Shown: piece after piece, positions 31,729 to 46,186 of the stretch
Position numbering within the stretch: position 1 is the stretch's first letter
Layout of the letters: each line of letters begins with the position of its first letter
Assembly (NCBI GenBank): GCA_003246895.1
Contig: QKCL01000003.1
Span: 1-53,527 of the forward strand
Source: Spirochaetota bacterium
GTDB taxonomy: Bacteria; Spirochaetota; UBA4802; UBA5550
Reading direction: 5' to 3'
DNA: 53,527 nt
The notes under the pieces: model-generated
Databases searched by the model: none
What the model was told of the DNA's origin: nothing
Seen by the model: the letters and a program-made list of their open reading frames with translations, nothing else
Made by a program: the position numbers and the translations under genes

Positions 31729-32035
31729 TTTGGGTTTCCCCCTTAATATTTATAAATATTTGTTAATATAACTATTCACTAGAAAGAATGCTTTTTTTAT
31801 GTCAATAAAAAGTTCCGGCATTCATTTTATTTTACTTGAAAATTTATCTGTGTTATGCTTTTGCCACAGGTAGTATTTTTTTTGCAACAGTCTGTTCTAT
31901 GCTGCTCTCCATTTCCGCAGGGGTGATTTTGCATGCTCAATTAATTCCTTTTTATGTTTGACTTATTATAGCGATGAAGAGGCTATTACATATAGGTTAA
32001 ATTGTTATACTAGTTTTAAATCTACGGGAGCTGAT
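31729..32035. other. Divergent regulatory region
   Basis: 307 bases between the OadA-like gene (-) and the four-gene envelope operon (+). TTGACT at 31958-31963 could be a -35 box, but no good -10 lies 17 bases away; TATACT at 32006-32011 is a possible -10 without a matching -35. The 17 bases at 31951-31967 are identical to 43117-43133 upstream of the PPDK-like gene. No gene is supported here. Confidence 0.4.
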
Positions 32036-34858
32036 ATGTCAGAAAGGATGAAGAGAGCTGTTTACATTATATTGCCGGCAGTTGTCGCGGTGCTATTGTT
32101 CAAGCTTACTCTTGGGAAGTGGGATCGAATTGCGGGAATATACCCATATCTTAACAGAATATTCTCTGTGATTGTTCTGGCCTGGCTTTCTGTGAAGCTC
32201 CTGAAAATTCATGAAAAAACCGCAGGATTTTCATCTTTATTAAAAAAAATTTTTATCGGATGCGGTATTCTGTCTGTGTCTGTTTCTGTTTTTCTCGTTA
32301 TCTGGTATAATTACTGTTTTTTTCCCGATGATGAGGATTATCTTTTAAAACAGGCTGATTCTGTAACATATAACGGTAATAGTATTGAACGGGTCCAGTC
32401 TGACCTGGTGAGAGAACTCGGTAAAAGCATAATCTCCTCCCCACTTGAAAAGAAGGATCTGGATTATCTCCTTAACCCTGAACTGAAAAGCAGGGATATC
32501 TATATTGATGAAAACCCTTACGGAAATAATTCACGGAACAACCTGAAATATGCGACGGGTAAAACCTTTTATTATATTTATCAGAAGAACTGCGCTGTTA
32601 TTAAGAATCACTCATCAATCAGATGGACGCAGAAACAATCTCGGTCGGAGAGATTTCTTGAATTTGACGCGGTTATTCCAAATATTGACAGCAGCAGTAA
32701 TTTTCACGGCCGTGTAGTTGTTTCATATTCACTGCAGGGCGGAAAAAAGGTGAAGTTATATGAAAAAAATATCGGTTCTGAAGTAAAACCTGATATTGAA
32801 GCATTCCGATTTTCGAATGTTTTCAAGGCTGTACTGTTTTATCTTAAGAATCCTGGACGTTCTGTGATAACAGATAATACGGGGTGGGAAAAGATTAAGT
32901 TGGCTATACCCAGAGAAAAGGGGTCGCTTGAAATAAGGTTTGAATCCAGTGAACATGATAATGCCTATTTCTTTGCAGGTACACCGCGTGTATTTGAAGC
33001 AGAAAAGAAACCTTTAAAAAAGGAACTGAATATTGTTTATATAATATTTGATACAATAGGTCAGCCACATATTGATTTGTATGAATATTATAAGCTCTTT
33101 AAGGAAAAGGGCTATGATGCAGCCATAAGTGAAATGGGGAAAAATAACGTAAGGACACCGGAGATAGACAGATATTTTGATAAATCCATACTGTTCTACA
33201 ATATGACCACAGAAGGGGAAACTACAAGGCCTTCAATAGTTTCTTTATGGACTTCACAGATTTATACTAAGTGCCGCATGCCTGTTTTCAGGAATATCGT
33301 TTCTATTAAGAATCAGAAGAAATTTTATGAGAAAGAATTTGCCACACTTGGTGATGAACTTTCAAAAAGGGGATACCTTACAAAGCAGATTGCCTGCAAT
33401 GCACAGGGGCATAATGTTTCCGGTGTAGGTTCAGATCTGGGCTTTGATGAGAATCATGATTATACCATGGAGACTTCCGAGTATCCGGCAAATATAAAGC
33501 ATATAGTAAAATTTTTAGAGGAAAACCAGAAGAGAAAGTTTTTTCTATACACCCATTTGAATATACCGCATACTCCCAAGTGGATTCCTTCAAAGTATTT
33601 TATAAATGAGCTATGGGGATCAATGTTCAATATCGATGCTGCCAAAATCAGGGGCAACATAAGATATGCAGATTTTAATTTCAAAATGATAATGGATACA
33701 CTGAAAAAACTGAAGCTTGATAAAAATACACTTGTTGTTCTTACGGCAGATCACAGCATGGGGGAACCCTTTCTGTTCAGGGAAAAGCCCGGAAGGCAGC
33801 TTTCTGCTGCTATGAAAAACGGCCGTGAATCGCAAAGTGTTGCTACCTTTCACCCAAATGCCATTTATGCAAGAAAGGGCGGGCAGCATCTCTATAGTGA
33901 CTATATGAAAATTCCGTTTATTGTTATCCCCCCTGCCGGTGTAGTAAATGGAGTAAAGAAAAATGAAACCTACATCAGCACACTCGATGTTGCACCAACT
34001 CTTCTTGATATAACTACCGGAGAAAAACAGAAAAAATTCAGCGGCAGCTCGTTCAAAAATCTTCTTGAAAAGCCTGAAACTGAGATGAAGTACACACATG
34101 AGTTTATTCCAATGGTTGGAAGATTCATGCGCGGCTTTATATATCAGGGAAGATACAAGTACTGGTGGAATATTACAGGAATTTACAAATATGATGTTAA
34201 AAAAGGCATTAAGTATATAAAACAGCCGGAACATCTCTATGATCTTGAAAATGACTATTTCAATACTAAAAACCTTGTAAGTGATGAAAAATACCGGGAT
34301 GTCCTCAGAAGAATGAGAGTTCTGCGTATGAATTCTTATAGAGATTATGATGAGATTAATTTTCTGCAGTTCCCTGAGTTTTCCAAACCCGGGGAGAGGC
34401 TGGATGTAAAAATTGAGGCCATTGGAGGAGAAATAGTATATCCCGAAGTATTCGGCAAAAATATCTCCTACAAAAGAAAATCTTCCGGTAAACTGGAACT
34501 TGCGGTTCGCAATGACAGTGCAAACAGAATTTTTTCATTTGAAACAAAACCCTATAGAAGCAGACTAAAAATTAGTATATATTCAAACGGTAGACCTGTT
34601 AATTCAGACAGGATAAAAATTGGAGTTGAAAAAAATAACCCCTTTGGAAAGGTAATAAGCCTGAATGATCCTTCTGACTTCTTTGTTTCAAGGATTACCG
34701 GACGTACCGGTTATGAAAGTACGGATACGGAAAAGGGCTTTGTTTATTTTTTCAGGGTTCCGGTAAATTACTGGCTTGAAATGAACAGTGATACCAAGGA
34801 TATAAATCTCAGCCCGGGAATCAAGGAAGTTCTCCGTGGGTGGGGATACATTCAGTGA
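32036..34858 (+). CDS. Membrane alkaline-phosphatase-superfamily enzyme (sulfatase/phosphotransferase fold)
   Basis: 940 residues. Three hydrophobic segments lie within residues ~5-105, then an extracytoplasmic region. From ~330 the metal-binding core appears: NIVYIIFDT, nucleophile region T396-T397-R398-P399-S400-I401 (GETTRPSI), KFFLYTHLNIPHTPK, and LTADHS (D572-H573). Aligning TRPSIVSLW with the sulfatase motif CxPSRxSLL puts Thr at the nucleophile and Ile at the signature Arg. It is therefore probably a phospho- or phosphoglycerol-type transferase or phosphatase, not a formylglycine sulfatase. About 250 further C-terminal residues are unassigned. The start is set at 32036 (GGGAG five bases upstream). 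First gene of a four-gene operon. Confidence 0.8.
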   Translation: MSERMKRAVYIILPAVVAVLLFKLTLGKWDRIAGIYPYLNRIFSVIVLAWLSVKLLKIHEKTAGFSSLLKKIFIGCGILSVSVSVFLVIWYNYCFFPDDEDYLLKQADSVTYNGNSIERVQSDLVRELGKSIISSPLEKKDLDYLLNPELKSRDIYIDENPYGNNSRNNLKYATGKTFYYIYQKNCAVIKNHSSIRWTQKQSRSERFLEFDAVIPNIDSSSNFHGRVVVSYSLQGGKKVKLYEKNIGSEVKPDIEAFRFSNVFKAVLFYLKNPGRSVITDNTGWEKIKLAIPREKGSLEIRFESSEHDNAYFFAGTPRVFEAEKKPLKKELNIVYIIFDTIGQPHIDLYEYYKLFKEKGYDAAISEMGKNNVRTPEIDRYFDKSILFYNMTTEGETTRPSIVSLWTSQIYTKCRMPVFRNIVSIKNQKKFYEKEFATLGDELSKRGYLTKQIACNAQGHNVSGVGSDLGFDENHDYTMETSEYPANIKHIVKFLEENQKRKFFLYTHLNIPHTPKWIPSKYFINELWGSMFNIDAAKIRGNIRYADFNFKMIMDTLKKLKLDKNTLVVLTADHSMGEPFLFREKPGRQLSAAMKNGRESQSVATFHPNAIYARKGGQHLYSDYMKIPFIVIPPAGVVNGVKKNETYISTLDVAPTLLDITTGEKQKKFSGSSFKNLLEKPETEMKYTHEFIPMVGRFMRGFIYQGRYKYWWNITGIYKYDVKKGIKYIKQPEHLYDLENDYFNTKNLVSDEKYRDVLRRMRVLRMNSYRDYDEINFLQFPEFSKPGERLDVKIEAIGGEIVYPEVFGKNISYKRKSSGKLELAVRNDSANRIFSFETKPYRSRLKISIYSNGRPVNSDRIKIGVEKNNPFGKVISLNDPSDFFVSRITGRTGYESTDTEKGFVYFFRVPVNYWLEMNSDTKDINLSPGIKEVLRGWGYIQ

Positions 34859-34876
34859 GATTTTAAGGAGTATATT

Positions 34877-35953
34877 ATGGCAGTGAGCAATAAAAATCAG
34901 GTTTTTAAAAGAAGTTTATGGAACAAGGTCCGTATAGGAACACACTATCTGGGCAGATATATAATGAAAAAGCCTGTTGTCTTTAACCTGAATTTTAATG
35001 TGACAAATATATGTAACCAGCAGTGTCCCATGTGTAATGCTGCTCTTCCGGGAAGGGGGGGAGAATCGGTAACTTTTGATTCCTATGTGAATTTGATAGA
35101 GAAACTGAATCCATATAATATAGCATCCCTGACTATTTCCGGAGGGGAACCCTCTCTTGTTAAGGATATTGATAAAATTCTCGATTATTCAGCGAAAAAG
35201 TTTCCCTTTGGAGTAAATGTAAATTCGAATCTCTATGGTTCTGAAAAAATAGTAAGGCCCTTTGCTGAAGCTGCACTTCGTAACAACATCAGAATAGGCA
35301 CTTCATTCGACGGTCTCGGCGCTGTTGCCGACAGGTTAAGGGGGGCTAAAAATGTTTCCAAAAGGGTTCTGGCAAATATAGAAATGGTGACTGAAATGAG
35401 AAAGGAAATGGGGTCAAAGTCAACCCTGAACATGAATACAGTTATTTCAGACCAGAACCTGCATCAGATACCTGAAATTCTTGATATTTCACAGAAATAC
35501 GGATGGACCCAGACAATTGCGCCGTGGAACAGTTTCTTCTATCAGGATCAAAATCCGAATATGCCTACACTGAAGTACAGCGAGGAACTGCAGAAGGTGG
35601 TTGATCTGGCTCTGACAAGGGAGAATGTATCATGTTCAAGGACATTTCTTGAAAATATTCCAAACTATGTTCAGGGTAAAACCGATAAACTCTGCCCATA
35701 CCTTACAGGCCTCTTCAGAACTTATAAAATTTTTGTGGATCCAAACGGGGATGTGTCTTTATGCAGCAGAAATCCAATAGGCAATCTCAATGAGTCAACA
35801 CTGGAAGAGATATTTGATCCGCGTTCAGAAAAATACAAAGAAGATATTGAGGGTTATAAAAAATGCCCCAAATGCTGGATGGCATGTTTTGTGGAAATAA
35901 TGCTGGCTTCACCATCTGTTTACAGAAACAGGGTAAAAAATATTTATAAATAG
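34877..35953 (+). CDS. Radical SAM enzyme with SPASM/twitch-like C-terminus
   Basis: 358 residues. The radical SAM cluster motif C46-x3-C50-x2-C53 (CNQQCPMC) is followed by LTISGGEPSLV. In the C-terminal part, CPYL, DPNGDVSLCS and CPKCWMAC give five cysteines, fewer than a full SPASM domain; this points to one auxiliary [4Fe-4S] cluster. Relatives include enzymes that modify peptides and those that modify sugars or lipids. Because the neighbour has a sulfatase fold, an anaerobic sulfatase-maturing role is tempting, but the neighbour's active site has Thr and no C/S-x-P-x-R. GGAG lies six bases before the ATG. Confidence 0.82.
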   Translation: MAVSNKNQVFKRSLWNKVRIGTHYLGRYIMKKPVVFNLNFNVTNICNQQCPMCNAALPGRGGESVTFDSYVNLIEKLNPYNIASLTISGGEPSLVKDIDKILDYSAKKFPFGVNVNSNLYGSEKIVRPFAEAALRNNIRIGTSFDGLGAVADRLRGAKNVSKRVLANIEMVTEMRKEMGSKSTLNMNTVISDQNLHQIPEILDISQKYGWTQTIAPWNSFFYQDQNPNMPTLKYSEELQKVVDLALTRENVSCSRTFLENIPNYVQGKTDKLCPYLTGLFRTYKIFVDPNGDVSLCSRNPIGNLNESTLEEIFDPRSEKYKEDIEGYKKCPKCWMACFVEIMLASPSVYRNRVKNIYK

Positions 35954-35964
35954 GCCGGGTTTTT

Positions 35965-37161
35965 ATGAATCTGAAAAATGCACTTATAACTGCGATCAGG
36001 TCCCTCAGAAGAAACAAGATGAGGTCCATGCTGACAAGTATAGGTATAATAATCGGTGTTTCATCTGTTATTCTCATGATTGGTCTCGGAAGCAGTGCAA
36101 GGATTGAGGTTAAAGATAAAGTAACAAATTTTGGAGAGAACGGAATATCCCTTGAAACAAAACCGGGAGGAAAACTCTTCACCTATAATGATGTTGCAAA
36201 TATCACAAAAGATATTTTTGAAATAAAATATTTAACTCCTGTCTGCTACAGGTCGGAAAAGTCTAATCTTCTTCGATTTCGCAATTCACTAACTCATGCA
36301 GTTGTGTGGGGTGTAAATAATGATTTCTTTGAAATCAAGGGGAGATCTGTCGCAACTGGCCGTGCCTTTACAGATGAGGATATAAATACCTATGCAAAGG
36401 TTGCAATTATAGGAGAGACTGTGAAAAAGAATCTCTTCGGCAGGCAGAATCCCATTGGTGAGCATATACTTCTTAATGATGTACCTTTGAAAATAATAGG
36501 TATAGCAAACCGTGCAGGAAGAGCTTTTTCCGGAAGGGACTTTGATAATATTGTAATCATTCCCTATACAACAACAAATGTACGTTTTTTCGGCAGGAGA
36601 TTTGTGTATAATGAACTCCTCCTTGCCACAAAGGACGACAGCATGATCAACTCCGCAGAAAAGAAACTTGTGTCATATTTCAGGCAGATGCATAATCTCA
36701 GAAGTGATGCAGAGGATGACTTCTTTATCAATACCAGCAAGCAGAAACTGAAAATGACCGAGGACATAATGACTGCTCTTTCTTTTCTCCTGGCCGGGAT
36801 CGCTTCGATTTCACTCTTTGTCGGGGGAGTTGGCATAATGAATATTATGCTTGTATCTGTAACGGAGAGGACTAGGGAAATTGGGATACGTATGGCAATA
36901 GGAGCCAAAAAGAAAGATGTTCTTGTTCAGTTTCTTATTGAGTCTGTGACGCTTACATCTGTGGGCGGATCTGTTGGTATAGCTCTGGGGCTGATTATGT
37001 ACCTGATTATTGTAATTGCACTGAAGTGGACATTTGTTTTTTCATTTGTTGCGGTTCTGCTGTCATTCTGTTTTTCAACTGCAGTTGGAGTATTTTTCGG
37101 ATATTATCCCGCAAAGAAGGCTTCAAATCTGAAGCCCATTGAAGCCCTTAAATTTGAGTAG
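35965..37161 (+). CDS. MacB/FtsX-type ABC permease without its ATPase
   Basis: 398 residues. A first membrane helix comes at residues ~20-45 (MLTSIGIIIGVSSVILMIGLG), then a periplasmic MacB_PCD domain, then three C-terminal helices with the FtsX motif VGGVGIMNIMLVSVTERTREIGIRMAIGA and YYPAKKASNLKPIEALKFE. This matches the permease half of MacB, which moves substrates out of the inner membrane by mechanotransmission. Here there is no fused or adjacent ATP-binding domain of the LolD/MacB class; the only ATPase nearby belongs to an ABC-2 pair on the other strand. It lies 11 bases after the radical SAM gene and 3 before the glycosyltransferase gene. Confidence 0.88.
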   Translation: MNLKNALITAIRSLRRNKMRSMLTSIGIIIGVSSVILMIGLGSSARIEVKDKVTNFGENGISLETKPGGKLFTYNDVANITKDIFEIKYLTPVCYRSEKSNLLRFRNSLTHAVVWGVNNDFFEIKGRSVATGRAFTDEDINTYAKVAIIGETVKKNLFGRQNPIGEHILLNDVPLKIIGIANRAGRAFSGRDFDNIVIIPYTTTNVRFFGRRFVYNELLLATKDDSMINSAEKKLVSYFRQMHNLRSDAEDDFFINTSKQKLKMTEDIMTALSFLLAGIASISLFVGGVGIMNIMLVSVTERTREIGIRMAIGAKKKDVLVQFLIESVTLTSVGGSVGIALGLIMYLIIVIALKWTFVFSFVAVLLSFCFSTAVGVFFGYYPAKKASNLKPIEALKFE

Positions 37162-37164
37162 GTT

Positions 37165-38802
37165 ATGATTTCAGAAAATTTGAATTTTTTTAAAAACAGA
37201 CGGATCCTCTGGTTCATGTTTCTTTTCAGTCTCATTTTTATAATGAGACTGCCCACACTTTTTAACGACTACTACGACGTGGATGAACTTGCAGCGATCT
37301 GTCAGGCACGCGACTATCTTGCTGGGGATATACCAGGAGTGGATTTTTCAGAGAGCAAGAAACCTCTCTATCATTTGATCTTCAAGGGGGCATACTCTCT
37401 TTCAATGAGCCATGGATGGGTCATTGTTCATGTTGTGACAATATTTTTTATTTTTGTGACATCACTCTTCCTGTACCTTATTGGAAGGAGAGTGGACTGC
37501 GAGAATACCGGATTAGTATCCGCCATGCTCTATGGGGTACTCATTTCTTCATTCAACCGGCAGTTTATGGCTACAAATGGTGAAGTTATATATAATCTTT
37601 TTCTTGCCGCAGGCCTTCTCTTGTTTATTATTTCAATTGAATCTGAAAAAATCAGGAGAGTGTTGTCATTTGCAGCTGCGGTTGTAATGGGGCTCTGTGC
37701 GTGGCAGGTGAAATTTCACGGCATAATTCTCATACTGTTTATGGCCTTTTTTATTGTGATTTATATTCCATATATTAAGTTCGGCCTCAGGAACAGGTAT
37801 TTCCTGTTTCTCTTCATTTCAGGATTTTCTCTCATGGGGCTCATTCTGGTTCTCAAAGCTGCAGGTTTCAAGCCGGCAGGTGATGCAGTTGCACAGGCCC
37901 TTTCTCTTCTGTATTACGCCAGTTCCCCTGGGAGAAATTTCACCATTGCGGATCTGCTCATAAGATTTTTTCACAGACAGACCCTGATCGGCCTGTGGCA
38001 TTTTGTGCTCTGGGTGCCCGCGGCACTGATTATTTTCAGGTTTGTAAAATTCAGATTCAAAGGGAAGGGGCTGTCGGAATCGGCGGTTATACTGTTTGCC
38101 CTGATAACATATTTAATGATATTTGGAGGAGGGGCCAGGATATACTTCCACTACTACATGGCTGCATACCCATTCCTGTCCATTGCGGCTGCCATGGCAA
38201 TAAATAATCCGAATTTTTACAGAATGGATGTATTCAGAAGAAAATTTACGCTGCTCCTTGCCATTCCCGGTCTTTTCTTCTTTTTATGGAATATGAAGGA
38301 TATATACATAAGGCATTTTGCTCAGCAGGCTTTCTACAATGAAGGCAGGGTTCTTTACTGGACGAGGGCTGTTCTGGCAGGGACATTCAATCATTACCTT
38401 CTTCCGGGTAAGGAGTATCTTGAAACAGTTAATTATATCAGAAATAATACCGGATCCTCTGACAGGCTTTTTGTATGGGGAGACGGCCCATATCTGAACT
38501 ATTTTGCCGACAGAAGACAGGGCGGAACAGGACTCTGGATGAAGAATACTGCCTACAGAATAAAAGGGTATTATGATATTGGTACAGCTCAGTCTCTTGA
38601 ACAGGCTGCCGGTGAGGAGAGAGGGCTTGTTGCAGTACTTGAAAGAAAGAAGCCTGAACTGATCGTGGATGTTTCTGGAAATGGCCTTTCCGGTTTCAGG
38701 GTGCCTCTTTCAACCCTGAAAGTTCTTAATAAATATATAAGTACAAAGTACAGGAAGGAAAAGAATATAAACGGTTTTGAAATTTACAGGAGAGTTCTAT
38801 GA
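37165..38802 (+). CDS. GT39/ArnT-like membrane glycosyltransferase
   Basis: 545 residues with about ten or more membrane helices in the first ~400, then a soluble periplasmic tail. The acidic motif YYDVDE (residues 36-41) after the first helix is the metal/donor-binding signature of GT-C enzymes in the dolichyl/undecaprenyl-phosphate sugar transferase class (PMT_2). The C-terminal part has NYIRNNTGSSDRLFVWGDGPYLNYFADRR across 29 residues. It should move a sugar from a polyprenyl-phosphate donor to an acceptor on the outer face of the inner membrane. It is last of the four-gene operon. The start follows TAGG and lies 3 bases after the previous stop. Confidence 0.82.
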   Translation: MISENLNFFKNRRILWFMFLFSLIFIMRLPTLFNDYYDVDELAAICQARDYLAGDIPGVDFSESKKPLYHLIFKGAYSLSMSHGWVIVHVVTIFFIFVTSLFLYLIGRRVDCENTGLVSAMLYGVLISSFNRQFMATNGEVIYNLFLAAGLLLFIISIESEKIRRVLSFAAAVVMGLCAWQVKFHGIILILFMAFFIVIYIPYIKFGLRNRYFLFLFISGFSLMGLILVLKAAGFKPAGDAVAQALSLLYYASSPGRNFTIADLLIRFFHRQTLIGLWHFVLWVPAALIIFRFVKFRFKGKGLSESAVILFALITYLMIFGGGARIYFHYYMAAYPFLSIAAAMAINNPNFYRMDVFRRKFTLLLAIPGLFFFLWNMKDIYIRHFAQQAFYNEGRVLYWTRAVLAGTFNHYLLPGKEYLETVNYIRNNTGSSDRLFVWGDGPYLNYFADRRQGGTGLWMKNTAYRIKGYYDIGTAQSLEQAAGEERGLVAVLERKKPELIVDVSGNGLSGFRVPLSTLKVLNKYISTKYRKEKNINGFEIYRRVL

Positions 38803-38823: not shown

Positions 38824-39864
38824 TTATTCGTCCTTTTGCCATTTGAAAAGTATGGATCCGATGAGCAGAAAAAATACTGACATCCCTGCAAGTGCCATTA
38901 TATTGTATCGGATCTCGTAAAGCCCGGCTCCATCATTCATTATCATTCTTGCACTCTCCGTAAGGTGTGAAAGCGGAAAGAACTTTGAAATTACCCTGAC
39001 TCCAGGCCTGGCACCCTCCAGAGAAAACCAGACTTCCGACAGAAACATCATGGGCCATGATATTAGATTTAAAATTCCTCCTGCAAACTCTTCACTGCTG
39101 CTCCTTGATGCAATTGTAAGAGAAAGGGATATCATGCTCAGGCTCCCCAGTATGAATACAGAAAGCAGAAGCAGGTAGGAACCTCTGTTTGTGAAACCAT
39201 AAATTAAATAGCAGCCAACGTAGACTATTAAGGTGGTGATTATGATTACAAAGAGTCTGGAGAGAATCTGTGAACTCAGAAATTCAAATGCACTGAGAGG
39301 TGTAACACTCAGTCTCTTGAGAACTCCGTTTTTCCTGTATCTTACAACTGTATAGCCAACTCCGAAAAGGGCGCTGAACATCATGTTCATGGCCAGTATG
39401 CCCGGGAAGAGCCATTCAATATAGGGGATCTCCCGGATGTTCTGCACTTCCTCCTTTGTCATTGCCATTTTTGCAGGATCAAAACCGCTTGCAATGAGAG
39501 CCTTTTCTGCAACAAGTCCTTTTGGAGATGTTGTGCTGTTCCAGAATCTGCCGCTCCCTTCATCTATGAGCAGGTCAATTCTGTGATGGCTGAGTTTTGT
39601 TATACCTGAATTTATGCTGTCTATGTCCACAAAATCAAATATACCTGTCTTCCTGAACCGTGATATCTGTTCTGCAATTTCAGAGGTCGCCGCTTTACCC
39701 GTAATGATTCCGATTTTGTACTGTTTCTTTCCGTCCTGGCTGAAGAGCAGGCTGAATCCAACTATTATCAGAAAGGGGAAGAGTATGTTCCAGCCGAAAC
39801 CTGACTTGTCCCGGTAAAATTCCTTGTTTCGTGAAATAAGCAGAAGCCATATTCTTTTAAGCAT
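38824..39864 (-). CDS. ABC-2 type exporter permease
   Basis: 346 residues. One N-terminal membrane segment (NILFPFLIIVGFSLLF) is followed by a periplasmic domain of ~130 residues, then five helices in the second half; the SWPMMFLSEVWFSLEGA segment is the conserved late helix of the ABC-2/YadH-DrrB class. It pairs with the ATPase gene 10 bases upstream in the operon. Such exporters move drugs, lipids or polysaccharide precursors; the substrate here is unknown. Confidence 0.88.
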   Translation of the reverse strand: MLKRIWLLLISRNKEFYRDKSGFGWNILFPFLIIVGFSLLFSQDGKKQYKIGIITGKAATSEIAEQISRFRKTGIFDFVDIDSINSGITKLSHHRIDLLIDEGSGRFWNSTTSPKGLVAEKALIASGFDPAKMAMTKEEVQNIREIPYIEWLFPGILAMNMMFSALFGVGYTVVRYRKNGVLKRLSVTPLSAFEFLSSQILSRLFVIIITTLIVYVGCYLIYGFTNRGSYLLLLSVFILGSLSMISLSLTIASRSSSEEFAGGILNLISWPMMFLSEVWFSLEGARPGVRVISKFFPLSHLTESARMIMNDGAGLYEIRYNIMALAGMSVFFLLIGSILFKWQKDE

Positions 39865-39874
39865 TATCTGTTCC

Positions 39875-40759
39875 TTATGTTCTGAGGGAGTGACCTGTGA
39901 GACTCAGGAAAACATCTTCAAGATTCGGTGTCCTCACTGTGAGTCCCGAGAGGTCTGCTCCTGATGCTGCAAGGGCCTGTATGCAGCTGTTGAGTTTATC
40001 TGTCTGTATCTCCACAGAATCATCCTTTCTGTACCATTTACAGCTTATACCTGTAAGTATACTTTCAGGTATATCGGGCGGGAGTATAATTGTTGATCTG
40101 CCTCCATGCTTCTTAAGGAGGCCTTCAGTTGTATCAAAATCTATTATTTTCCCGCTGTCCATTATGGCTATTTCATCGCAGAGTTTTTCAGCCTCTTCCA
40201 TGTAGTGAGTAGTGAGAATAAGTGTTTTTCCCATATTCTTTATGTGGCCCACAATATCCCAGAGATGGCGTCTGGCCTGTGGATCCAGTCCGGTGGTGGG
40301 TTCATCAAGCACTATGAGTTCCGGATCATTTGCAAGTGCAATTGCAAGAAGCAGCCTCTGTTTCTGCCCTCCCGAAATTTTCCGGTTGTCCCTGTCCAGT
40401 ATGTCCTGAAGCATGCAAACTTCTATAAGCCAGTCCAGATCGGCATGTTCATGGTACATTCCCATGAATGTCCTGACAGTTTCAATTACTGAAAGAAACT
40501 GCGGAAGTTCCGTGTTCTGGAATTGTATTCCCACTTTTGCCTTGAATTCCCTTCCCCTTGGTTTTCCATTGAAGAGAATCTCTCCTGAGTCAGCTTTGAG
40601 AATACCTTCTATGAGTTCTATAGTTGTGGTTTTCCCTGCTCCATTTGGGCCCAGAAGGCCGAAACATGTTCCGGATTTAATTGAGAAGCTTACTCCGTCA
40701 ACGGCCTTTATCTTGCCGTAGTGTTTCCTGAGGTCCCTGACCTCCAGTATATTTGTCAT
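39875..40759 (-). CDS. ABC exporter ATP-binding protein (ABC-2 class)
   Basis: 294 residues. Walker A GPNGAGKTT near residue 38, Q-loop QFQNTELPQ, signature ISGGQKQRL, Walker B LIVLDEPTTGLD, and H-loop LTTHYMEEAEKL. A C-terminal domain of ~80 residues is typical of DrrA/CcmA-like ATPases. It partners the ABC-2 permease downstream. The ATG overlaps the stop of the small upstream gene by four bases. Confidence 0.92.
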   Translation of the reverse strand: MTNILEVRDLRKHYGKIKAVDGVSFSIKSGTCFGLLGPNGAGKTTTIELIEGILKADSGEILFNGKPRGREFKAKVGIQFQNTELPQFLSVIETVRTFMGMYHEHADLDWLIEVCMLQDILDRDNRKISGGQKQRLLLAIALANDPELIVLDEPTTGLDPQARRHLWDIVGHIKNMGKTLILTTHYMEEAEKLCDEIAIMDSGKIIDFDTTEGLLKKHGGRSTIILPPDIPESILTGISCKWYRKDDSVEIQTDKLNSCIQALAASGADLSGLTVRTPNLEDVFLSLTGHSLRT

Positions 40760-43174: not shown

Positions 43175-46100
43175 ATGTTTACCGGAAAGGAATGTTACAG
43201 GGATCTTAAACTTGCTGATGACGTGAGCGAGCTGCTTAAATGCCTTGTTCACAATGATGATATCAATTTCATAAAGAAAAAACTGGTGGAGATAATCCTT
43301 TTCCTCCGTTACGAAACGAAAACCCGGGGCTCCCTGAAGGGCGAGCGGACGGAATCTCTCGGAGAACTGGAAAAGGATGTTATACTTTTCCTGAACAGCT
43401 ATCAGGGGCAGCAGTTTGAGAATTTCTATACGCTTATATATGAACTGATCGTTCAGATACCTAAATTCAAGATATACGGCATTGATATAACAGAACTTCG
43501 TGATATCGCCCACGATTTTGATGCCGAATTCCGATATGATGATATATTCGGCTCCATCGCATCCGATATAAGAAAACTGACACACCAGCACCTTTCGGAA
43601 AAGGTAATTCACAAGATTGAAAAATTTGAGGAATTCCTTCATTCAGACAAGCCCTCGGCAATCATTGAGGGGAGTACCGTTGTCAATGCAACAAGGGATG
43701 CAAAGGATGAGATGCTTTCATCACAGGTTTTCATGGATCTCATATTCCTTAAGAATAAGCTTAAAACAGCATGGTCAGACGAGGGGGAGAGTAAAAACCA
43801 CCAGAAGAGAAATGAATTTTTTGAAATAATGGAAACCTTTCTTAAAAGATACGGAACGGCAGAACTTGAGAAGCTGAATTCATTTGTTGAGTTCATGGGT
43901 TATTTTGACCGTGCCAGGGGGAAGATAGCCGATTCCGACTGGCTTGAAATTAAACCCGGCAGGCTCAGGTACTATCTGAAGAAACTCATCCATGACATCA
44001 GTTTCAGCAATATGCAGTCCAAGGGGGAGATACTCTTCAGCTTTATCACAGCAGATTCCCTGCTTGAGCAGGTGTCATTTATTTATTATTCGAATCTGGT
44101 AAATGGAAGGCTTAAATATATAACAGACGATACATATATTGAGGCAATGAGAGTTGTAATAGATCTGGCATTCAGTACCCGGGCAGTGGGGCACGGCACA
44201 AAAATTCTCGGAAGATTCGCCTTCCTCATAAAGAGAATAATGAGGCAGCTCGATGTCCGTCCTGACCGTATAGCCCATTTCCCCAGTATCGTTGAGGCCA
44301 TGAATTCAGAGCTTGAGAATAACTTTATCAACCTGAAAGAACTCTATGCATCTGTACTCCTGGAGAAGAACAATTCTCCTGCATTGACATCTATTCTGAA
44401 TAATACCATCCGAGAGAAGAGCACACACCTTCTGGCCAATATGATTAACAGTGTAAAGAGTTTTGAGCACAGAAAATTTCTGGAACCCTATGACAGGATA
44501 CTTGATATAATAAATAACAGGAGGGAGCTCCCTCTGAGGTCATTTGTATTCGAATACGGAACAGGCCGGGATATTGATTACGGCGAGTTTGAAAACCCTG
44601 AATTTATGGGAGGCAAGGGGTATTCCCAGATAAGAAACACAAGAATTATTACAGATCATGTGCTGGAGAATTTTGCGGTGCCTCCCGGTTTCGGTTTCAG
44701 TACCCTTACCTGGAGTCATGTAAAATCAGGTGCTTTTCCTGTGGATGATCTGAGAGATGAACTTTCGTATATTATTTCATCACTTGAAGAAAGAACCGGT
44801 AAAAAATTCAGGAGTGAAACCGATCCGCTGCTTGTCATGGCCAGATCAGGAGCCGTTGCTTCCATGCCGGGAATAATGGATACGGTGAGTCATATTGGAC
44901 TCAACAGGGAAATAGTGGAAAAGTGGTCAATCACACTTCTGGAACCGGAAAGGGCATATCAGGCATACATTACATTTATGCTCAGTTACGCTAAAAGTGT
45001 TCTGTCTCTGAATACAAGGTCTGTGCTCAGGGAGACCGGATTTGACAGTGTAGTTTCAGTTTTCCGGGAAGGGCTCTATATAATAAAGCAGATAGCAGAG
45101 GCAATAGAAAATACAATAAATGAAATGACCGGAGGCGCGTTACCTGTTGACCCATTTGAGCAGCTTTACAACTCGACTGTTGCGGTGTTTAAGTCCTTTG
45201 AAAATGAAGTGGTACAGAAACAGATGAAAAATATGGGCATACCATCCGAGTTTCAGACCGGCTGCCTCATACAGCAGTGCCTTCCTGTTCTCGGTGCCAT
45301 GGACTGTTCAGGTGTGTTCTTTACGAGAAATCCCGGCACAGGAAAGATCGGCAGCGAGTATGAGGAACAGATTGAATTCAGTGACGGCTTCTTCGGAGAT
45401 GTAATAGCAGATGGGACCATAAGTCCAAATACGATAGAAGATTTCATAAGGCTTCATTCTGAGCACTATGAAAATTTCAGAAAGTTCAAATATTATGATG
45501 AAAGGATACAGAGGTTTCCAACTGATATTGAATTTGCCATCCGGGGAGACAAGACCTATATCGTTCAGTCACGGGTTCTGAAACAGTCCCCCATTGCGCA
45601 GATCATAAACAGTTATGATTTTTACAAGGAGAACATCTACACAAAGTATAAACTCATAAAGAGAACAGCTTTCGGCCTGAATAAAAACATTACAGGTACA
45701 TATCTTGACAGGAAGGCACTCAGTGAAGCTCCGGTACTTGCCCAGGGAAAACCCGTAAATGGAGGAGCTGTGCGTGGGCGTATCATTACGGATCATAAAA
45801 ATATAGGCAGATATGAGGGACCGCTCATATTTTTAACAGAAAGCAATGTCCCCACAAAGGTAATTGTGGACGAGAAAAGATTTTACGGATATATATCCAA
45901 GGAAGGGGGTGTGACTTCCCATGCTGCCCTTGTGGCAATAGGAGAGGGTAAGCCATGTGTAACAGATATCAACTGGGAACATGGTGCGCGGGATGGAGAT
46001 ATCATATTTGGCAACAGCCTTCTCCATGAAGGAGATTATATTACACTTGATGCAAACACCGGGAATCTCTACATCAGGGATATTCCCATCATGGAAGTAT

Positions 46101-46186
46101 CTGTTGTGGACAGTGATTACAAGGAGATAAAGGATGAGATATTCTCAGTCATCGAGGAGCTTGTGGCGCCTGTTGAGAGTGAGTAA
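43175..46186 (+). CDS. PEP/pyruvate-binding PPDK-like protein with novel N-terminal region
   Basis: 1003 residues. Residues 1 to ~470 are helical, charged and unassigned. From ~478 a PPDK/PEP-synthase type ATP-grasp begins (FMGGKGYSQIR, VPPGFGFSTLTW, RSGAVASMPGIMDTV at 557-571, GVFFTRNPGTG, YIVQSRVL). Residues ~870-975 are the phosphohistidine swivel domain with GGVTSHAALVA (His916). The PEP/pyruvate TIM barrel that normally follows is absent; the protein ends ~30 residues after the swivel. It could phosphorylate another substrate from ATP through His916, as rifampin phosphotransferases and related enzymes do. GGAG precedes the ATG. It stands alone. Confidence 0.85.
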   Translation: MFTGKECYRDLKLADDVSELLKCLVHNDDINFIKKKLVEIILFLRYETKTRGSLKGERTESLGELEKDVILFLNSYQGQQFENFYTLIYELIVQIPKFKIYGIDITELRDIAHDFDAEFRYDDIFGSIASDIRKLTHQHLSEKVIHKIEKFEEFLHSDKPSAIIEGSTVVNATRDAKDEMLSSQVFMDLIFLKNKLKTAWSDEGESKNHQKRNEFFEIMETFLKRYGTAELEKLNSFVEFMGYFDRARGKIADSDWLEIKPGRLRYYLKKLIHDISFSNMQSKGEILFSFITADSLLEQVSFIYYSNLVNGRLKYITDDTYIEAMRVVIDLAFSTRAVGHGTKILGRFAFLIKRIMRQLDVRPDRIAHFPSIVEAMNSELENNFINLKELYASVLLEKNNSPALTSILNNTIREKSTHLLANMINSVKSFEHRKFLEPYDRILDIINNRRELPLRSFVFEYGTGRDIDYGEFENPEFMGGKGYSQIRNTRIITDHVLENFAVPPGFGFSTLTWSHVKSGAFPVDDLRDELSYIISSLEERTGKKFRSETDPLLVMARSGAVASMPGIMDTVSHIGLNREIVEKWSITLLEPERAYQAYITFMLSYAKSVLSLNTRSVLRETGFDSVVSVFREGLYIIKQIAEAIENTINEMTGGALPVDPFEQLYNSTVAVFKSFENEVVQKQMKNMGIPSEFQTGCLIQQCLPVLGAMDCSGVFFTRNPGTGKIGSEYEEQIEFSDGFFGDVIADGTISPNTIEDFIRLHSEHYENFRKFKYYDERIQRFPTDIEFAIRGDKTYIVQSRVLKQSPIAQIINSYDFYKENIYTKYKLIKRTAFGLNKNITGTYLDRKALSEAPVLAQGKPVNGGAVRGRIITDHKNIGRYEGPLIFLTESNVPTKVIVDEKRFYGYISKEGGVTSHAALVAIGEGKPCVTDINWEHGARDGDIIFGNSLLHEGDYITLDANTGNLYIRDIPIMEVSVVDSDYKEIKDEIFSVIEELVAPVESE

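Follow-up and report, generated by a model that had tools for sequence, protein, structure and literature searches.

The window, a 53,527-nt stretch of DNA that comprises the entire contig C10 of a Spirochaetota bacterium assembly (3.57 Mb, 95.7% complete), carries four + strand open reading frames in tandem, at 31958(TTG)-34858, 34877-35953, 35965-37161 and 37165-38802. Genes 1 and 2, 2 and 3, and 3 and 4 are separated by 18, 11 and 3 bases, so that the packed, same-strand four-gene operon described in an earlier note is confirmed in the sequence. Its start requires correction: the operon had been taken to begin at 31951, the ORF of gene 1 opens at the TTG at 31958, and the likely start of gene 1 is neither of these positions but the ATG at 32036, which is preceded by a GGGAG motif and gives a product of 940 aa. 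The genes are:

Gene 1, 32036..34858, + strand: membrane-anchored alkaline-phosphatase-superfamily (sulfatase-fold) enzyme, 940 aa (PF00884, SGSH_C)
Gene 2, 34877..35953, + strand: radical SAM/SPASM (twitch-type) enzyme (PF04055, PF13186)
Gene 3, 35965..37161, + strand: MacB-type ABC permease without an ATPase domain (MacB_PCD, FtsX, MacB structures)
Gene 4, 37165..38802, + strand: multi-helix GT-C/PMT_2-like putative polyprenyl-phosphate-dependent glycosyltransferase, 545 aa (PMT_2 matches in its family)

The operon is flanked upstream by a divergent PYC_OADA/HMGL-like carboxylase gene and downstream, 21 bases past gene 4, by a convergent ABC-2 permease gene. The latter belongs to a convergent DrrAB/NodIJ-like ABC-2 exporter pair directly 3' of the operon (38824-40759); the same pair comes after the permease and transferase genes in genomes G014 and G016. 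Another ORF of the window, at 43175-46186, encodes a 1003-aa protein whose sole match is a weak PPDK_N hit over residues 526-754. Promoter and terminator scans returned promoter-like sites at no more than chance level.

To place the operon in its phylogenetic context, we compared 59 relatives and then 393 genomes sampled from the phylum; outside the phylum, the comparison consisted of a close-relative scan. Among the 393 genomes, the four-gene order occurs only in its own genome, distant occurrences beyond this sample being possible, and each gene has a context of its own elsewhere; by the criterion that the earlier note itself set, the idea of one undescribed biosynthetic line fails in part. 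A literature search found no paper on this gene combination. Strong orthologues of gene 2 (57-67%) are present in eight of the 393 genomes: G022, G031, G035 and G039 of family f4, G024, G028 and G033 of family f6, and the genome studied here (f1). Seven of these, all except the only 69% complete G039, also contain strong orthologues of gene 1 (40-49%). Outside f1, strong orthologues are confined to f4 and f6 of the order, and in every other carrier genome genes 1 and 2 lie on different contigs. Apart from G039, all gene 2 carriers have a gene 4 orthologue (42-58%, mostly 44-49%), as do three further f1 genomes; these copies, too, show no linkage to genes 1 and 2. Genes 1, 2 and 4 are never adjacent outside the window.

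The co-occurrence of genes 1 and 2 has a naive hypergeometric p of 3e-14, a value confounded by kinship; the independent signals amount to ~1 in 20 inside family f1 and to ~1 in 15 across families, and are weak once kinship is corrected for. A pair of gene 1 paralogues has nearly the same phyletic pattern as genes 1 and 2, and the match between the two genes is therefore not specific. Recent foreign acquisition was rejected: GC3 of genes 1-3, including that of the native gene 3, is just 1.2-1.7 s.d. low, and the trees, of which the radical SAM tree has a root that depends on a partial sequence, give genes 1 and 2 no clear nested position in another family. Vertical descent with repeated loss would fit these trees, which do not prove it.

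Gene 3 matches MacB_PCD (5e-35) and FtsX (5e-17) in Pfam and MacB as its best structure match (1e-64), and the ATPase domain is absent, as the earlier note had proposed. In f4, f6 and f7, its orthologue is located inside a TolC-MFP-ATPase-PERM-XerD-SpoIID-QueA operon. Contig C83 of the same genome as the window (L222, 4532-10953) carries TolC-MFP-ATPase-XerD-SpoIID-QueA with the permease slot empty. Together, these gene orders argue that gene 3 is a permease relocated from the operon of a MacAB-TolC-type tripartite exporter, the other components of which (TolC, adaptor and ATPase) are encoded on C83; it has no ATPase partner in the operon because the permease gene sits apart from the exporter operon. 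G003, G004, G006 and G009 contain the same operon from which exactly the permease gene is missing; G003, G004 and G009, like the genome studied here, have the permease gene outside the exporter operon, and at the threshold applied G006 yielded none. By gene position, displacement of this subunit is family-wide. Gene 3 corresponds to the permease half of MacB (MacB_PCD and FtsX) in MacAB-TolC, but here, unlike in that system, a separate protein supplies the ATPase and the permease gene lies away from the operon. Gene 3 may still work with the ATPase and adaptor encoded on C83. Some genomes that lack genes 1 and 2 also have it, and distant gene 4-like transferases adjoin the permease in G009, G014 and G016 and lie near it in f7.

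Gene 1 matches the Sulfatase profile PF00884 at 1e-24, above the gathering score, as well as SGSH_C, which bears out its assignment to the alkaline phosphatase (AP) superfamily; two hydrophobic helices are located at its N-terminus. Alignment to S1 sulfatase structures places a Thr at the formylglycine position, and this residue is Thr in 10/10 aligned sequences. In the C/S-x-P-x-R motif, Cys/Ser is thus exchanged for Thr, and the motif Arg is replaced as well. The protein therefore has the PF00884 fold of S1 sulfatases but not the Cys/Ser from which formylglycine is made. T397-R398, D339 and D572-H573 are invariant in the orthologues and paralogues (10 aligned sequences), among them the Thr and the putative metal-ligand positions expected of a Thr-type AP-superfamily enzyme (T397, D339, D572, H573). 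Thr is the nucleophile of LtaS, EptA, MCR and YejM (PMC7576196). This precedent, the position of the Thr and the invariant residues make gene 1 more likely a phospho-transferase or hydrolase, as predicted from the alignment; it is no substrate of an anSME-type radical enzyme, which would need Cys/Ser at the formylglycine site.

An inner-membrane anchor, the AP fold and the Thr nucleophile position are shared with LtaS, EptA/MCR, OpgB/MdoB and YejM. Unlike these proteins, gene 1 is nearer in sequence to the S1 sulfatases (SGSH_C domain), has a long stretch that separates the anchor from the catalytic domain, and carries an extra C-terminal region ending in WGYIQ. An AlphaFold single-sequence model of the C-terminus was uninformative (pLDDT 33). 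The tail is nearly invariant up to the last residue, and WGYIQ is equally conserved in gene 1 homologues from genomes without gene 2; it is a trait of a wider spirochaetal AP-fold family and not of gene 2 carriers. The extended motif L(K/R)xWGYIQ (34800-34855 in the window) is near-invariant in spirochaetal AP-fold proteins (L092-L114), where it lies at the C-terminus or close to it; over the rest of their length these proteins are just ~25% identical.

In f4 and f6, a second AP-fold gene, AP2, precedes the orthologue of gene 1. The AP2 orthologue of the genome studied here is located on contig C35, adjoining a second AP2-AP pair, and several f5 genomes have AP2-like genes near an LPG_synthase_TM flippase. 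On C35 (L197, 8327-10845), the paralogous AP gene beside AP2 is split into two ORFs of 439 and 363 aa, where the relatives have a single ORF of ~825 aa; the split reflects a frameshift, decay or an assembly error.

Gene 2 is the SPASM-like radical SAM enzyme that the earlier note had recognized, with matches to Radical_SAM (PF04055, 4e-14) and SPASM (PF13186, 1e-7). A CxxxCxxC motif spans residues 46-53, C273, C296, C330, C333 and C337 are the auxiliary-cluster cysteines, and 8/8 cysteines are invariant in the family alignment. It reaches the curated cut-off of no NCBIfam model listed and stays far below all of them. By these profile scores, gene 2 belongs to a radical SAM/SPASM family that has no name so far. 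It has the CxxxCxxC motif and a C-terminal auxiliary-cluster domain in common with PqqE, NirJ, AhbC and the PTO1314 family, but differs from them in falling far under the NCBIfam cut-offs and in that its relatives' copies adjoin an LPG_synthase_TM flippase.

In f4 and f6, the gene 2 orthologues stand after genes for a SpoIIE-type phosphatase and an LPG_synthase_TM (UPF0104) protein. The phosphatase ORF was uncalled in G022 and G035, and in G028 an AMP-ligase ORF separates flippase and phosphatase. The phosphatase-flippase pair also exists without gene 2 in many genomes of the order, including contig C31 of the genome studied here. The closest named relative in the close-relative scan is a Spirochaetes MAG of the same order (G033). 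A partial relative of gene 2 (47%) on deltaproteobacterial contig L126 is divergent from a distant LPG_synthase_TM gene, whose product is only 26% identical to the spirochaetal flippase; its neighbours are NTP-transferase, HAD and CDP-alcohol phosphotransferase genes. A search of that deltaproteobacterial genome did not find gene 1, but covered just 1.4 Mb, so that the absence says little. A plasmid search for gene 2 returned only generic matches at ~25% identity.

Gene 4 itself matches no Pfam or NCBIfam profile, and the GT39-like assignment put forward earlier is supported indirectly, through the family, in which 8/16 aligned members match PMT_2 (best 2e-10). The protein has at least eight hydrophobic helices and an invariant D40 near the N-terminus; a structure search found no match, and an AlphaFold single-sequence model was uninformative (pLDDT 43). 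In G003, G004 and G006, which represent three genera of its own family, the gene 4 orthologue adjoins an LPG_synthase_TM flippase gene. In archaea and Pseudomonas, glycosyltransferases of the PMT/STT3 type and others are encoded next to UPF0104 proteins (PMC5898192, PMC12713373), and these three loci resemble GpgSDF, HexSDF and archaeal AglD-type loci in that an LPG_synthase_TM protein adjoins a glycosyltransferase (PMC12713373, PMC5898192). The genome studied here differs from such loci in that its flippase is encoded on another contig, C31, and in f4 and f6 the flippase adjoins the radical SAM gene instead.

We tentatively favor, at somewhat under even likelihood, an explanation in which the operon is lineage-specific, gene 3 being a displaced exporter permease and genes 1, 2 and 4 taking part in lipid-linked envelope glycan or phospholipid head-group work. 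The permease gene would have left the C83 TolC-adaptor-ATPase operon within its own family. Gene 2 would carry out a cytosolic radical step on a lipid, sugar or head group, the modified molecule would be flipped by an LPG_synthase_TM/UPF0104 protein (C31 in this genome), and then, at the periplasmic face, the GT-C-like gene 4 would use a polyprenyl-phosphate donor to transfer a sugar and gene 1, with its AP fold and Thr nucleophile, would transfer or remove a phospho group. From linkage, a single lipid-linked envelope glycan or head group is a plausible common target of the three; we infer their activities, the order of the steps and the single common product. The phyletic pattern common to genes 1 and 2 and the same flippase family beside genes 2 and 4 fit envelope lipid or glycan work without proving one pathway. 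Against one product, genes 1, 2 and 4 are not adjacent elsewhere, and the flippase is also found in genomes without gene 2; the similar phyletic pattern of the gene 1 paralogue pair, the low identity of the L126 flippase and the AMP-ligase ORF in G028 weigh on the same side. Of the single undescribed biosynthetic line that had been envisaged, these partial links among three genes survive; gene 3 is instead part of a tripartite exporter of an ordinary kind.

It is quite possible, if less so, that unrelated genes were gathered here by rearrangement, gene 3 as an exporter subunit, gene 4 as a glycosyltransferase that travels with gene 3 in part of the order, and genes 1 and 2 independently. The occurrence of the order in no other genome, the separate context of every gene, the distant transferases beside the permease in G009, G014 and G016 and the weakness of the gene 1/gene 2 co-occurrence after kinship correction would all be expected of such neighbours; chance is harder to square with the phyletic pattern that genes 1 and 2 have in common and with the one flippase family found beside both genes 2 and 4. 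A dedicated four-gene pathway whose product is exported by gene 3 would account for the tight same-strand packing seen in this one genome, but it is improbable given that the order is unconserved and that gene 3 orthologues reside in an exporter operon and also occur where genes 1 and 2 are missing.

Other readings center on the substrate of gene 2. SPASM enzymes often act on peptides, and the substrate of gene 2 might be a short precursor peptide or else the gene 1 tail, which is nearly invariant to its final residue. However, no precursor-like small ORF, which the earlier note had suggested seeking nearby, fits between the genes of the operon or is evident upstream of it, which speaks against a precursor peptide; the presence of WGYIQ in homologues from genomes without gene 2 speaks against the tail, leaving peptide maturation very improbable. 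The sulfatase fold beside a SPASM radical SAM gene, together with the common phyletic pattern, recalls a sulfatase and its anSME-type maturase, in which gene 2 would convert the active-site residue of gene 1. Against such a pair, all orthologues and paralogues have Thr, and neither Cys nor Ser, where formylglycine would form, and the best 25 NCBIfam matches of gene 2, which lies under all cut-offs listed, include no anSME model; we give this reading next to no credence.

Within the favored envelope explanation, a bolder and rather unlikely version makes gene 2 the first member of an undescribed radical SAM family. Its substrate would be a membrane lipid, a polyprenyl-linked sugar or a head group, which a UPF0104 flippase would move after the modification, and gene 1 would be a Thr-type phospho-transferase dedicated to that product. 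To our knowledge, few enzymes perform radical chemistry on membrane lipids or lipid-linked sugars.

Thus, the operon is a one-off assembly and not a conserved undescribed system, and it provides a lead to two undescribed enzyme families. It illustrates that an operon can resemble a novel system when one subunit of an exporter has moved into it. The flippase-linked radical SAM family, for which a similar link was seen once in a deltaproteobacterium, is a concrete lead that is worth a targeted survey.
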